A stretch of DNA of 64,000 nucleotides from Mechercharimyces sp. CAU 1602 (GTDB lineage: Bacteria > Bacillota > Bacilli > Thermoactinomycetales > JANTPT01). The stretch spans positions 124,001 to 188,000 of the forward strand of contig NZ_JANTPT010000001.1 in the NCBI RefSeq assembly GCF_024753565.1, read 5' to 3'. Below, in pieces: positions 15,807 through 57,245 of this stretch; position 1 is the stretch's first letter, and the number at the start of each line of letters is the position of its first letter. The notes beneath the pieces are model-generated. The model ran no database searches. It was given only the letters and a program-made list of their open reading frames with translations, and was not told the origin of the DNA. The translations under genes and the position numbers were made by a program.

Positions 15807-16114
15807 CTGAGGTAATATTATATCATATATGGGGGGAAACTTGGCGTATGTTTCACCACTAAAAGGAACAAATTTTTGCGAGGAACAGGCGAAGTAGACG
15901 TTATCTTAGTCTTTTTAAGAGAGCTGGTGGGTGGTGCGAACCAGTAAGGCGATAGCGATCGAATTACACCTGGGAGCAATTCATATATTGCACTGGTTGC
16001 ACTGTATGAACGGGAGCCAATCCCGTTATCCGATGAGTGAAAAACAGGATCACCCTGTTTTTAATAAAGGTGGTATCGCGGGTAGCCTCGTCCTTTCTAG
16101 GAGGGGCTATTTTT
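15807..16114 (+). promoter_or_regulatory. Tyrosine T-box riboswitch leader of tyrS
   Basis: The leader shows the T-box parts in order. The Stem I motif AGAGAGCTGGTGG...GCGAACCAG is near 15920-15945. The specifier loop GAATTACACC has the Tyr codon TAC at 15965-15967. A Stem III hairpin (AAAACAGG/CCTGTTTT) lies at 16041-16060. The T-box sequence AAAGGTGGTATCGCG is at 16066-16080, and a terminator stem (TAGCC/GGCTA) with five T ends at 16114. The bulge TGGT can pair with the ACCA end of uncharged tRNA-Tyr, turning tyrS on when tyrosine is short. A TATAAT at 15795-15800 is the probable -10, but its -35 is poor, so the 5' limit is approximate. The stretch 15480-15790 holds nothing else I can support. 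Confidence 0.9.
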
Positions 16115-30049: not shown

Positions 30050-31276
30050 TGATATGATCCCCTTATAGTGGATAGAGAAAAGAAACCATTTTAATCTGTT
30101 AACTATGGAGGGGACCTTTCTATGGGGAGAAAAAATAGGACGTACGAAGTAAGCTATAAAAGGGACTCAGTTGAGATGTATTTTAAGAGAAAAATGGGCT
30201 ATTGAACAAGCGCTGAAAGGTAAGGAATCGATACAAAAACCTTTCGATTATTGGTAAAGCCATTTAAGGAAGAAGGGATAGTAGGATTAGAAGAACTGCG
30301 GGGCAAAACAAAAGGAAATGGCAAATGAAGACCAAGAAAATGATCCGAAGATCCAGAGACAGAAATTCAACGACTGCGGGCGGAGAACGAAATGCTAAAA
30401 AAGCCCTTAAAAAGTGACAGAAAGAAGTCCCCTATTATCGCACAAAATATTTCGTCATAAAAGAAATGTCGAAGACCTATAAACTGAGGTTGTGGTGGGA
30501 CATTGCGGAAAGATTCCCGAGTGGTTATTATCAGTGGTGAATAAGAAAGGTTTCACTTTCAAATAAGCAGTTAGAGGATGAACAATTAAAGGTGAGGATG
30601 AAGGAATGTCACACGAAAATCCAATGGGATATATGGATACAGGAGAGTCAAGGCTTGGTTACAACGGACGTATCTACACAAGCTCAATCATAAATGGGTG
30701 CAACGCTTGATGAGAGAGGTGGGCATGGAAGCAGTTATTTGCAAGAAATGACCCTGTTATGGAAAAAGAGAAGCCTATTTCATCTCTAAAAATCATTTAG
30801 ATCGTGAGATTTTGGCTTCAAAGCCAAATGAGAAATTGTGTAACCGCTTCAACTATCTAATATTCAATGGACAAAAGCTTTATTTATCTACCGTTAGGAT
30901 TCATACAACAACGAGATTTTTTCTTATCAATACCATTAATAGCAAGAGAGAAACGAGAGATTAGTGACGTTCTATTACATAGCGATCAAGAATTTCAATA
31001 TACCTCTCGTCAATACAACTATTTTCTAGAAAAAGTACAATATTCGAGCTAGTATGTCGAGAGAAGGTTGAATTGAGAGTTTTTTAGTCACTTTAAATCT
31101 GAATGCTTTCACCTTCATCGTTTTCGTACTGCTGACGAAGTGAGGCATGCTGTTCACCAATACATTCACTTTTATAACCAGGAACGTTTTCAAAAGAAAT
31201 TAAACAACTTACTGATAAGGATCAGAGTGTTGCGTAAGGATTTTTAATTCCTGTCTACTTGACAGAGATTACTTCA
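30050..31276 (+). mobile_element. Decayed IS3-type element (inner), plus strand
   Basis: This copy is about 1.23 kb, the usual size for the IS3 family, with imperfect terminal repeats: TGATATGATCCCCTTATAGT at the left and, on the opposite strand at the right, TGAAGTAATCTCTGTCAAGT. Inside, broken frames give an OrfA start (MGRKNRTYEVSYKRDSVEMYF, ATG about 30122), a coiled-coil stretch with LRAENEMLKK, the OrfB helix-turn-helix (YGYRRVKAW...NHKWVQRLMREVGMEA), and integrase-core pieces (LLHSDQEFQYTSRQYNYFLEK near 30970-31040). Many stops and shifts make it inactive. It inserted into the orfA part of the outer element. No target duplication can be seen. Confidence 0.75.
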
Positions 31277-37933: not shown

Positions 37934-39052
37934 ATGCGTGATCCACGAGTAACTAAACTAGCACAAACCTTGGTTCAACATTCTGTTGAAGTAAAAAAAG
38001 GAGATAAAGTGCTGATTGATGCACAAGGGCCTTCTCAAGATTTAGCGCGGGCGCTGATTGCTGAAGTGTATGCCGCAGGTGGGTACCCTTTTTATCAGAC
38101 ATTTGACCATGAATTGCTACGTGCTCAACTGCTTGGCACAACGGAAGAGCACATAAAAATGCGGGCGGAAATCGAACTGCACCAGATGAAGCAAATGGAC
38201 TGCTATATCGGAATTCGTGGAAACAATAATATTAATGAGTTATCTGATGTGCCAGAAGAGAAAATCCGGCTCTTTCTGGAATACTTTAACAAGCCTCTTC
38301 ATTCTCAAGAAAGGGTGAACAATACTCGTTGGGTAGTACTACGTTATCCGAACTACTCGATGGCGCAACTGGCCAATATGAGTACAGAGGCATTTGAGGA
38401 CTTTTATTACAAGGTATGTACGGTTGACTACAAGCGGATGGATAAGATGATGAACCCGCTTAAAGAAAGGCTAGAAAAGACGGATGAAGTGCGGATTGTC
38501 GGACCGGGAACAGATCTAACATTCTCCCTCAAAGGAATGCCAGCTATTAAATGCGCAGGAGAGAAAAATATTCCTGATGGTGAAGTTTACTCCGCTCCGG
38601 TACGCGACTCGGTCAATGGTGTCGTCACCTATAATACTCCAAGTGTATACCAAGGTACCCTGTTTGAAAATATACGCCTTGAGTTCCGCAATGGTAAAAT
38701 CGTGGACGCAACGGCGAATGATACAGAACGGATCAACCAGATTCTGGATACTGATGAAGGTGCCCGTTATATTGGGGAGTTTAGCTTGGGCGTAAACCCT
38801 GATATTCATCATCCGATGAAAGACACCTTGTTTGATGAAAAGATTAACGGCAGTTTTCACTTTACCCCCGGATCAGCGTATGAAGATTGTGATAATGGCA
38901 ATCGTTCTGCGGTGCATTGGGATATTGTCTGCATCCAGCGCCCCGACTATGGCGGTGGTGAAATTTACTTTGATGGTGAGTTGGTTCGCAAGGATGGACG
39001 ATTTGTGGTGGCAGATCTTGAACCGCTCAATCCAGAAAATCTACGTGGCTAA
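37934..39052 (+). CDS. M29 family aminopeptidase (AmpS/AmpT type)
   Basis: The 372-residue protein is a thermophilic-type M29 metallo-aminopeptidase. Metal and active-site regions are CAGEKNIPDGEVYSAP, RYIGEFSLGVNP, GSAYEDCDNGNRSAVHWDIV and the end YFDGELVRKDGRFV. These hold the Glu, His, Tyr and Asp ligands of the two-metal site. It removes N-terminal residues from peptides in the cytoplasm. ATG 37934 follows AAAGGAGGATACAT. It is slightly shorter than the 408-413 residues of Thermus AmpT but typical for the Bacilli form. It is divergent from the fRMsr gene. Confidence 0.9.
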   Translation: MRDPRVTKLAQTLVQHSVEVKKGDKVLIDAQGPSQDLARALIAEVYAAGGYPFYQTFDHELLRAQLLGTTEEHIKMRAEIELHQMKQMDCYIGIRGNNNINELSDVPEEKIRLFLEYFNKPLHSQERVNNTRWVVLRYPNYSMAQLANMSTEAFEDFYYKVCTVDYKRMDKMMNPLKERLEKTDEVRIVGPGTDLTFSLKGMPAIKCAGEKNIPDGEVYSAPVRDSVNGVVTYNTPSVYQGTLFENIRLEFRNGKIVDATANDTERINQILDTDEGARYIGEFSLGVNPDIHHPMKDTLFDEKINGSFHFTPGSAYEDCDNGNRSAVHWDIVCIQRPDYGGGEIYFDGELVRKDGRFVVADLEPLNPENLRG

Positions 39053-39053
39053 A

Positions 39054-39098
39054 GACACAAAAAGCACAGGTTGTGATTCAACCTGTGCTTTTTGTGTC
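39054..39098 (+). terminator. Very stable terminator after the M29 peptidase gene
   Basis: GACACAAAAAGCACAGGTTG and its perfect complement form a 20-bp stem with a TGATT loop; the T run TTTTT lies within the 3' arm. Confidence 0.8.
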
Positions 39099-46431: not shown

Positions 46432-47211
46432 ATGGGTGTCATACATGGAAATCGATCACTACCAAAAATCGTCGTGTTATCAGTTCCGAAAAGTGGGACG
46501 AACTTACTTACACAGATTATAAGAGGCATTCCTCAGATGCGCTATCGCAATGAACCAGTCGATAGTGTAGCTGATCTACGGTTATTGTCAGCAGGGGAGA
46601 TAGGTTGGAGCCATGCTGCATATAGTCGTTCATACCATCGAGCGTTACGAAGACACAAGATTAAAACGGTGTTTATCAGTCGGGATCCGCGTGATGTAGC
46701 CGTCTCATTTACCTACTTTATATTAAATAAGCATCATGAACATCGCCTTTATCCTTACCTACGGCAATTGCCGTCATTTAATCATCAATTACTTGCCGTT
46801 ATTAAGGGAGTGAACTTCACCTCCATTGGCCAACAAAAACGGTTTGGAATTAGATCACACCCAAATATCATTGCTCAAATCACAAATCGATATCGGTGGC
46901 GATTATGTCCGTATGTTTGTAACATAACGTATGAAGACTTGATGCGAAATAAACGAACAAGATCACAAGCGTTACATCGGATTACAAATTATCTATGGCC
47001 AGATATACAAAATCTTGGTATTCAATCGATGGATGACATGGTTTTGAGAATGGCCGATCATATCGATCCAAACACCTCTTACACTTTTCGTTCAGGGAGA
47101 ATCGGTGAATGGAGGCAAAAATTTAATCGTAAACACAGACAAGCGTTTAAACAAATCGACAAACAAAACCTGCTTATAAAGTTAGGGTACGAACAAGATC
47201 ATCGTTGGTGA
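46432..47211 (+). CDS. Sulfotransferase-like protein (copy 1)
   Basis: The 259-residue protein has the features of the sulfotransferase domain family: a 5'-phosphosulfate loop VVLSVPKSGTNLL (residues about 14-26), a 3'-phosphate site FISRDPRDVAVSF (81-93) and a C-terminal TFRSGRIGEWRQKF, comparable to the RKGxxGDWKxxF motif that closes on PAPS. It should transfer sulfate from PAPS to a hydroxyl or amine. No signal peptide or membrane helix is seen, so it acts in the cytoplasm. Many His, Arg and Tyr make it basic. Two related genes lie at 54.2 and 55.1 kb. ATG 46432 follows GAGGAGGGTGAGGT. The acceptor is unknown. Confidence 0.85.
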   Translation: MGVIHGNRSLPKIVVLSVPKSGTNLLTQIIRGIPQMRYRNEPVDSVADLRLLSAGEIGWSHAAYSRSYHRALRRHKIKTVFISRDPRDVAVSFTYFILNKHHEHRLYPYLRQLPSFNHQLLAVIKGVNFTSIGQQKRFGIRSHPNIIAQITNRYRWRLCPYVCNITYEDLMRNKRTRSQALHRITNYLWPDIQNLGIQSMDDMVLRMADHIDPNTSYTFRSGRIGEWRQKFNRKHRQAFKQIDKQNLLIKLGYEQDHRW

Positions 47212-54224: not shown

Positions 54225-54995
54225 ATGGAGATGAGAAATACTCAGTTACCAAAAGTGTTAGTGCTATCACTTCCGAAAAGTGGAACCAATTTATTGATAC
54301 AGTTACTGCGTGGAATTCCCAGTCTAACGTATCGTGGTGGAAGAGATGTCTTTACATTGCAACAGTTAGAATTGATCAAACCAGGAGATATATGTTGGGC
54401 GCATAATCGTTATAGTGTGGCTTTTCATCGTAAGTTATTAGATTCTAATATTAAGGTTGTCTATATTAGTCGCGACCTTCGTGACGTAGCGGTTTCTTTT
54501 ACTCATTTCCTAGAAAAAGTCCATACCAAGCCAGCATTTGCTCAATATTTAAGTTTGATTCCTACTCACGAAGAACGATTACTCACCGTGATTAAGGGAG
54601 TGCGTCCTGCCAAAGTTCTCGCAGAGAAGACGGGCTTAACAAAACAACCTAATTTGATCGACCAGTCGATACCTTCGTATCGTTGGAGAGAACAGAAGGG
54701 AATATGTGCGGTTACATTTGAAGAATTAATGAAGAGTGAGAGGAAAAGAAACCGTACAGTCAAGAAAATTGCCTCGTATCTCTTTCCTGAGCTGATAATG
54801 AATCCCGTAAGGCGGAAAAATCGAGTACATCAAATGATTAGAAATATTGATCCTCAGAAATCACAAACTTTTCGTTCAGGTAATATTGGTGACTGGAAGA
54901 AGGAGTTTCATGCTGTTCATAAGGATACTTTTAAGAAATTAGGAGGAGGAGCTTTACTTGTTCAACATGGGTATGAGAAGGATAATAGATGGTAG
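54225..54995 (+). CDS. Sulfotransferase-like protein (copy 2)
   Basis: The 256-residue protein aligns without large gaps to copies 1 and 3. PAPS motifs are LSLPKSGTNLL (about residues 14-24) and ISRDLRDVAVSF (81-92), and the C-terminal motif is TFRSGNIGDWKKEF. In the 3'-phosphate-binding motif Leu85 replaces the Pro of RDPRD found in the other two copies; whether activity remains is uncertain. The start is ATG 54225 after GAGAGAGGGTGAT, or ATG 54231 as in copy 3. It lies between the YhcN-like lipoprotein gene and copy 3, upstream of the glycan cluster. Confidence 0.83.
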   Translation: MEMRNTQLPKVLVLSLPKSGTNLLIQLLRGIPSLTYRGGRDVFTLQQLELIKPGDICWAHNRYSVAFHRKLLDSNIKVVYISRDLRDVAVSFTHFLEKVHTKPAFAQYLSLIPTHEERLLTVIKGVRPAKVLAEKTGLTKQPNLIDQSIPSYRWREQKGICAVTFEELMKSERKRNRTVKKIASYLFPELIMNPVRRKNRVHQMIRNIDPQKSQTFRSGNIGDWKKEFHAVHKDTFKKLGGGALLVQHGYEKDNRW

Positions 54996-55140: not shown

Positions 55141-55905
55141 GTGAGAAATATCCAGTTACCGAAAGTATTGATACTATCGTTACCGAAAAGTGGAACCAAT
55201 CTATTGATGCAAGTGATTCAAGGCATTCCTACACTTACTTATCGCAATGGGAATGATTCTTTAACTTTAAATCAATTATATTCTATGAAACCAGGAGATA
55301 TTTGGTCTGGGCATAATGATTATACAAAGGCTTTTCATCGTAAGTTAATAGAATGTAATGTGAAAGTGATCTACATTAGCCGCGATCCGCGGGATGTAGC
55401 CGTTTCGTATACACATTTCCTTGAAAAAATACACACGACTCCTCCGCTAGCAAAATATTTAAGGTTATTACCTACGCATCAAGAGCGATTACTCACTGTT
55501 ATTAGAGGGGTACGTCCAGCTCCAGAGATGGTTAAAGAGTCAGGTTTAACTCTAAGGAGAAATATTATTGAAGTATCTAAGCCATCATACCTGTGGATAG
55601 AGCAACCAGGGATATGTGCAGTTACATTTGAAGAGATGATGGAAAGTAAAGAGAGGCAGTATAAAACGGTAGAGAGGATTGCCGTGCATCTCTTTCCTGA
55701 ACTGAGAGATAATCATTTACTTCGGAAAAATTTAGTGAGGCAAATGATTAACAATATAAATCCTAAGAAATCATGGAGCTTTCGCTCAGGCAGAATAGGT
55801 GATTGGAAAAGTGAATTTAAACCCGTTCATAAGAGTGCTTTTAAACAGATAGGTGGTGGTAATCTTCTAATGAAATTAGGCTATGAGAAGGACTTGTACT
55901 GGTGA
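55141..55905 (+). CDS. Sulfotransferase-like protein (copy 3)
   Basis: The 254-residue protein starts with GTG after AAAGGAGGTGTGAGTT. It is very similar to copy 2 along its whole length (for example LPKVLILSLPKSGTNLLMQ, SYTHFLEKIHT and LPTHQERLLTVIRGVRP). PAPS motifs are intact: LPKSGTNLL, ISRDPRDVAVSY and SFRSGRIGDWKSEF. It should be an active cytosolic sulfotransferase of unknown acceptor. The adjacency and similarity of copies 2 and 3 point to tandem duplication. A large structured region follows. Confidence 0.85.
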   Translation: MRNIQLPKVLILSLPKSGTNLLMQVIQGIPTLTYRNGNDSLTLNQLYSMKPGDIWSGHNDYTKAFHRKLIECNVKVIYISRDPRDVAVSYTHFLEKIHTTPPLAKYLRLLPTHQERLLTVIRGVRPAPEMVKESGLTLRRNIIEVSKPSYLWIEQPGICAVTFEEMMESKERQYKTVERIAVHLFPELRDNHLLRKNLVRQMINNINPKKSWSFRSGRIGDWKSEFKPVHKSAFKQIGGGNLLMKLGYEKDLYW

Positions 55906-56035
55906 TCAACCTACAGGAGACGAGGAGTATCTACGGTCAACTATTTCTCCCCTAAAATTGGTTTCCCGTAGTGGCTTTATGAAACGGTAATGGGCATGGG
56001 TAAAAACCTCTATTAGTGTACAAATAGTCTCTAGA

Positions 56036-56170
56036 AAGATGGGTCGCCGCTCGGTTGTATAATATTAGAAAATACCTTATCTGAACGGAAAGGCTTGCAA
56101 GGTATTTTCTAATATTATTTATAGGAACTTCTCTGCTGGGGGTTCCGAGCAGCGGTGGCTAACCGATCTT
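56036..56170. repeat. Large nested inverted repeat / structured RNA candidate
   Basis: A perfect 20-bp inverted repeat (ATAATATTAGAAAATACCTT at 56059-56078 and its complement at 56099-56118) encloses a 20-nt loop. Outside it, AAGAT-GGGTCGCCGCTCGG (from 56036) pairs imperfectly with CCGAGCAGCGGTGGC...ACCGATCTT (to 56170). The whole could fold as a long two-tier hairpin between convergent genes. It may be a bidirectional terminator, a small RNA or a miniature mobile element. The gap 55906-56035 holds nothing else I can support. Confidence 0.6.
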
Positions 56171-56225
56171 ACTTACGTTTCTTTGTATAATGGACAGATG
56201 AACTATAACTCCTCTGAAAGATCAT

Positions 56226-57245
56226 TTAGGTATCTTTTCTGTTATATATGGATTCCAGCATGCCTACCATGTTGTTTTCGAATATAGGCTGGGTGAGGGT
56301 ATTAGCAGTTTGTAATCCTTCTGTGATGAATGTACGCATAAGAGCAGGACGTTCCAGCATAAATTTTATTCCCATAGCAATTGCACGTGGGTTTTTACCT
56401 TCAGCAACATAAGCATTCTTCAGATGATGACAGAAGTCTAGTATTCCTCCTGAATTTGTTGTGATAACAGGAGTACCACACGACATTGCTTCCAAAGGAG
56501 GAATAGAAAAACCTTCAAACCATGATGTTGAGACAAAAAGGTCTGCATTTCTATATAGACGCACCATTCCCGCTACCCCTTTAGGTTTGAAAGTCTGATA
56601 TGAAATACCTTTTGGGAGAGAGAGGAGACCTTCTGTACATATCATGTTTACATGGAACGGGTGAGGATAAATCTTTTTTAGTATTTTTAGTGCCTTTACG
56701 AAGTCATCGAAACCCTTTAATGCATAGCCTGCTTTGGGATCACGTGCAATGTAGAGAATTGTGCGTGATCCAATCTTGCGGGTTTTTTTATATGGATGAG
56801 CAGGGTAAAATTGCTTTCGATCTACACCTAGATTGACGGTGTATACTGGATCTTTACTTATGTTTTTGATTTTTCTGGCTAGCCAATGAGAAATGCTGAT
56901 GATAGGAATACCTTGTTGATAAGTCCACCTCGCAAGTTCTTTATTCGATACCCATAGTGGTTCGAACCCAAGACTCCAGCGCACACATTGCTGTGGCCAT
57001 GCTGCGTATGCTGGAATGAAAGTGGTATAAAAGTTGGGCAGGACAATATCACCAAACGGAATATATTCCTTATCCAAGGCAGGCACTTTATACAGTTCGC
57101 AATGAATGGGGTAATCAATGGGGGCTTTTTTAGGTATGACAATAATCGTTTCATGCCCCTTAGATTGGAGTGCATTGGCTAATTCAACGAGAACCTTACA
57201 ACCACCTCCAGTGTGCAAGGCTGCGACAGGGATGACAACTCTCAC
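56226..57245 (-). CDS. GT4-type glycosyltransferase
   Basis: The 339-residue protein has a GT-B layout. The N-terminus begins MRVVIPVAALHTGGGCKVLVELANALQSKGHETIIV, the C-terminal domain has YIARDPKAGYALKGFDDFVKALKIL, and the sugar-nucleotide site is the E-x7-E motif in SWFEGFSIPPLEAMSCGTPVITTNSGG. It should transfer a sugar from an NDP donor in the cytoplasm. It is on the opposite strand to the glycan operon and diverges from it, so it may have its own control. Sugar and acceptor unknown. Confidence 0.88.
   Translation of the reverse strand: MRVVIPVAALHTGGGCKVLVELANALQSKGHETIIVIPKKAPIDYPIHCELYKVPALDKEYIPFGDIVLPNFYTTFIPAYAAWPQQCVRWSLGFEPLWVSNKELARWTYQQGIPIISISHWLARKIKNISKDPVYTVNLGVDRKQFYPAHPYKKTRKIGSRTILYIARDPKAGYALKGFDDFVKALKILKKIYPHPFHVNMICTEGLLSLPKGISYQTFKPKGVAGMVRLYRNADLFVSTSWFEGFSIPPLEAMSCGTPVITTNSGGILDFCHHLKNAYVAEGKNPRAIAMGIKFMLERPALMRTFITEGLQTANTLTQPIFENNMVGMLESIYNRKDT

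Follow-up and report, generated by a model that had tools for sequence, protein, structure and literature searches.

A perfect palindrome in a decayed IS3-family transposase gene of Mechercharimyces sp. CAU 1602, probably written by a single template switch

Why does a perfect 20-bp stem, nested within a second and imperfect one, lie between two facing genes of Mechercharimyces sp. CAU 1602, and how did its two arms come to match so exactly? The element occupies positions 56036-56170 of the 64,000-nucleotide stretch analysed here (contig NZ_JANTPT010000001.1, positions 124,001 to 188,000 of the forward strand), which we call the window, and an initial annotation had read it as a structured or small RNA, a MITE-like insertion or an elaborate bidirectional terminator. 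Here, we argue from comparison with homologous sequences that the element is the decayed coding sequence of an IS3-family orfB, in which a late template switch probably copied the right arm over the left in one event, and that the outer stem was inherited with the gene and is marginal.

The hairpin sits in a 320-bp gap that separates a sulfotransferase gene from a convergent glycosyltransferase gene. The features of the locus, in order, are:
55141 to 55905, + strand: sulfotransferase gene upstream of the hairpin, third paralog (open reading frame; PF00685, E 3.2e-15)
55913 to 55956, + strand: short stretch with similarity to the 3' portion of IS3 orfA (blastn to the own-genome copy L054, 75.6% over 45 columns, E 0.001)
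55992 to 56218, + strand: decayed middle of an IS3-family orfB, own-genome orfB residues ~74-148 (tblastn, blastn, NCBIfam)
56045 to 56054, + strand: 5' half of the outer stem, in orfB-derived sequence, complementary at 9 of 10 positions to 56145-56154
56059 to 56078, + strand: left arm of the perfect stem, apparently rewritten as the exact reverse complement of 56099-56118
56079 to 56098, + strand: loop of the hairpin, 20 nt, recognisable orfB coding sequence (LNGK...), identical to L054 at 14 of 20 positions
56099 to 56118, + strand: right arm of the perfect stem, coding sequence (KVFSNI) inherited from orfB
56145 to 56154, + strand: 3' half of the outer stem, in orfB-derived sequence
56226 to 57245, - strand: glycosyltransferase gene, facing the sulfotransferase gene (open reading frame; PF00534, E 6e-21)

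All three sulfotransferase paralogs of the window are on the + strand (46432-47211, 54225-54995 and 55141-55905), and the third shares 64% identity with the second and 42% with the first. Sulfotransferase relatives at 35-41% identity occur in five other genomes among the 42 of the order that were searched, and a sulfotransferase scan of genome contigs returned no relative. In 10 stretches downstream of glycosyltransferase and sulfotransferase homologs, folded and inspected by eye, no comparable element was seen. The window also carries a T-box leader at 15872-16098 on the + strand (Rfam RF00230, E 4.5e-25).

The inner stem, 20 bp without mismatch around a 20-nt loop (arms 56059-56078 and 56099-56118), is present just as first described, and it lies far beyond chance expectation for the local composition: in first-order Markov simulations a perfect stem of at least 16 bp never appeared, either for the whole window (200 runs) or for the local gap (5000 runs). 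The folding energy of 56020-56190 is -56.4 kcal/mol on the + strand (z -4.4; matched by 1 of 200 shuffles) and -50 kcal/mol on the - strand (z -6.3; matched by 0 of 200). The outer tier is weak. Its halves do pair at 90% of positions (56045-56054 with 56145-56154), as the nested description had it, but when only the flanks were randomised around a constant core, 7 of 500 sequences on the + strand and 14 of 500 on the - strand folded equally well across 56036-56171, as did 34 and 26 of 500, respectively, across 56012-56195, and the outer pairing thus barely exceeds chance. In the predicted fold of the + strand the outer pairing is shifted and a small extra hairpin forms at 56124-56146. In GC-corrected folding energy across 2554 sliding windows the element ranks third among the separate peaks on the + strand and fifth on the - strand, and its strength is not unique, as 39054-39098 forms another perfect 20-bp stem. 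That stem has a 5-nt loop, starts just after an open reading frame that ends at 39052 and looks like an ordinary terminator hairpin.

Where does the sequence come from? A covariance model for which the element was the sole input returned four rows from its own genome, with matches listed up to E 10: the element, its own reverse-strand overlap and two full-length relatives scoring 35.9 and 35.1 bits. Both relatives fall on the coding strand of an IS3-family orfB, and the second copy is frame-broken. The own-genome copy L052/L054 is matched as an IS3 family transposase (NCBIfam NF033516) at E 5.8e-77. Queried with the protein that the first own-genome orfB encodes, tblastn aligned 56012-56218 of the window to residues 80-148 (51% identity, E 3.3e-16), a match that contains one TAG and one TAA, and the blastn match extends to 55992-56214 (152 of 225 identical, E 1e-27). 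A codon alignment of residues 80-148 keeps one frame across 69 codons with no change of length, hairpin included. The 46-residue stop-free part, 56081-56218, matches the NCBIfam model transpos_IS3 at E 1e-5 with 25 bits against a curated cut-off of 160, a shortfall expected of a fragment; against PHROGs the same piece reaches a transposase family at E 0.00098, ranked after two families of unknown function, and in Pfam it gives no transposase match and a single weak, irrelevant one.

The orfA-like piece at 55913-55956 is assigned with moderate confidence by its sequence similarity: none of 500 shuffles scored as high, though by a narrow margin (best shuffle 17, observed 19). By blastn coordinates, approximately 300 nt of the IS3 element between the orfA-like and orfB pieces are replaced here by 35 nt. 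Because these two matches fill most of the 320-bp gap, the alignments show it to be mostly a decayed IS3-family remnant, with the element as orfB coding sequence that keeps the frame of the gene. The remnant thus shares with IS3-family insertion sequences the coding sequence, the frame and the residue pattern of orfB ~74-148, and it differs from them in that only an internal fragment was matched, which is interrupted by two stops and contains a palindrome absent from the 11 copies compared. Against plasmid records the orfB protein gave at least 5000 matches, and among the matches listed all are below 60% identity. Close orfB relatives are scarce. Counting the own genome, they occur in 2 of the 42 genomes searched in the order (E 1e-40) and, at E 1e-60, in 2 of 398 genomes of the class and in 3 of 398 when the phylum was searched; viral contigs scanned with orfB returned no relative. 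The window contains another weak IS3 orfB-like match at 30605-30889 on the + strand (27% identity, one internal TGA, E 1.1e-5).

The two arms of the hairpin relate very differently to their homologs. The arm comparison covers 11 homologs, with L058 and L059 (31-33% identity) used in the codon comparison only; L056 aligns just to residue 124 and L057 falls outside the hairpin region. Several homologs are themselves broken, with internal stops in L057, L072 and L076. The left arm of the window is identical to its homologs at 5-11 of 20 positions and the right arm at 11-16 of 20, with the right arm higher in all 11; two more distant copies give 7 (left) versus 8 (right) and 6 versus 9. The right arm is therefore the nearer one in 13 of 13 homologs, which are related to each other, so that these counts are not independent. 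The homologous columns of the two arms can pair at only 3-9 of 20 positions in each of the 11 homologs, versus 20 of 20 in the window, and the pairing is thus not conserved in relatives. Both in-frame stops fall within the left arm (TAA at 56060-56062, TAG at 56066-56068). Taken together, the comparison suggests that the left arm was turned into the exact reverse complement of the right, with its length unchanged.

How many changes this took is unremarkable. The left arm differs from L054 at 9 of 20 sites, compared with 64 of 187 outside the left arm, and the log10 P of its change count is -9.9 versus about -8.6 for typical ordinary decay. The left-arm changes are about as many as ordinary decay predicts, which speaks against a template switch; only the agreement of the changes with the right arm, not their number, is exceptional. 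In neutral simulations started from L054 at the observed divergence (64/187), none of 20,000 runs gave a stem of at least 16 bp, the maximum being 15. That the left arm rather than the right was overwritten is favoured by 1.8-3.7 log10 units across four homologs.

We propose that a replication template switch during decay of the pseudogene wrote the reverse complement of the right arm over the left arm. The nascent strand, for example, might have been running from right to left when it folded back, used its own sequence as template for about 20 nt and then resumed on the original one. One such switch would yield the perfect 20-bp hairpin together with the two stop codons in frame, and the outer stem would be inherited coding sequence rather than a product of the switch. 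The right arm differs from the homologs at 4-9 of 20 sites and the arms nevertheless match perfectly, which suggests that the switch came late. Among the 11 present-day homologs a quasi-palindrome at the site reaches p<0.05 in one (L071, 0.0235); with no clear quasi-palindrome in the homologs, correction of an earlier imperfect palindrome is unsupported and a switch at short microhomology must be assumed. Our searches turned up this remnant in no other genome, so that the event has no branch to be assigned to, and because none was found with the remnant in unaltered form, the template switch is a step that we infer.

Template-switch mutations at quasipalindromes are an established class in Escherichia coli (PMC7202029). 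As in the mutations described there, one arm seems to have been made the exact complement of the other in a single event; unlike them, the present case has no clear prior quasi-palindrome in present-day homologs and is inferred from comparison. Template switching has also been proposed as a source of new RNA stems and hairpins, with microRNA and rRNA loci among the instances (PMC8794818). Our hairpin resembles those in that a perfect stem would have arisen de novo by reverse-complement copying, and differs in that it lies in a dead bacterial transposase gene with no RNA known. Among titles and opening lines of abstracts from the open-licence literature we saw no such case.

What might the hairpin do now? 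Canonical intrinsic terminators have a GC-rich stem, a short loop and a T run after the stem, and bidirectional intrinsic terminators occur between convergent genes. The hairpin of the window has the position of the latter, and its stem core is common to two other hairpins, at 1057-1099 of an Enterococcus stretch (L051) and at 1504-1545 of L012 (G018, a genome of the same order), both of which share GAAAATACCTT/AAGGTATTTTC and lie between convergent ORFs. In its build it departs from intrinsic terminators: its loop is 20 nt long and only 3 of the 20 stem pairs are G-C. Since the loop is long, the stem AT-rich and the T-rich run mostly inside the stem, it would make a poor canonical terminator. 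A terminator scan, restricted to loops of 3-8, gave no site anywhere in 55800-56400, the hairpin included. Because the flanking genes are convergent, that scan gave no other site there and two look-alikes lie between convergent ORFs, it is plausible that the hairpin now serves as a bidirectional terminator for the facing genes. The look-alikes were found by their shared stem, so that only their position is informative, with n=2; they hint at a recurrent type of bidirectional terminator.

Selection may instead have built or perfected the hairpin as such a terminator, by stepwise compensatory substitutions in dead transposase sequence. The convergent genes, the empty scan and the two look-alikes would all fit such a history, which we nonetheless regard as unlikely. 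It would require the exact complement at all 9 sites, of 20, where the window departs from L054, for which a single copying event is the simpler account; the AT-rich stem, the long loop and the T-rich run mostly within the stem are those of a poor canonical terminator; and the look-alikes, picked for the shared stem, were compared without control hairpins. Somewhat less doubtful, though still tentative, is the idea that a single template switch in the dying transposase gene created a working bidirectional terminator in one step, from insertion-sequence debris.

A sequencing or assembly artefact, in which a fold-back chimera overlies a genuine IS3 remnant, would also explain the palindrome, as reverse-complement copying could take place during library preparation and the sequence is represented by one assembly. 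Length and frame are kept on either side over 69 codons, however, which a fold-back chimera would not normally be expected to do, and we consider this explanation very unlikely.

A conserved structured or small RNA, as initially suggested, has even less to recommend it. The strong folding z-scores on both strands are what such an RNA would show, but no Rfam family matched at its gathering score (five sub-threshold matches, E 0.059-7.7), and across the 42 genomes of the order the covariance model matched only two at E <=0.1 under stricter filters, the own genome and G018, where the match is partial and coincides with the L012 hairpin. All full-length relatives that the searches found are transposase coding DNA that lacks the perfect stem, and no conserved pairing is therefore seen. 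In four orfB genes, the 136 nt that correspond to the element were at p 0.05 no more stable than their shuffles (18, 110, 62 and 34 of 200 as low).

Searches for copies beyond the own genome gave little. By blastn the element matched one genome besides its own in a set of 101 that includes it, two in the 42 of the order and three in the 398 of the class, all in short stretches of approximately 25-49 nt; those in G072 (L010), G024 (L011) and G018 (L012) were inspected and judged unrelated in origin. Phage and plasmid DNA searches with 55900-56230 and a search of viral contigs for the 18-nt stem pattern returned no match, and the 13-nt stem core matched one Enterococcus stretch in genome contigs. 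A MITE-like miniature element is the least credible reading, for all that its nested inverted repeats and the mobile-element origin of the sequence accord with one, since the piece of mobile element is decayed internal coding sequence, its full-length relatives likewise come from within IS3 coding sequence, blastn finds it once where a MITE would be repeated, and neither blastn nor the covariance model turned up additional copies in the own genome that share ends and have target duplications. An outermost TACAAA/TTTGTA pair, considered as a mobile-element end with TA duplication, was dropped as too short. Thus, the structured RNA family and MITE readings are not supported by the evidence.

In conclusion, the locus is an ordinary IS3 remnant that carries an instructive palindrome, one that we attribute to a probable template switch. 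If the terminator reading is true, the palindrome would offer a natural instance, from a bacterium, of a regulatory hairpin that arose in a single step, comparable to what is proposed for RNA stems (PMC8794818). More generally, a hairpin between genes can score highly in folding and yet be mutational debris of a pseudogene and not an RNA gene, and perfect pairing may come from one event.
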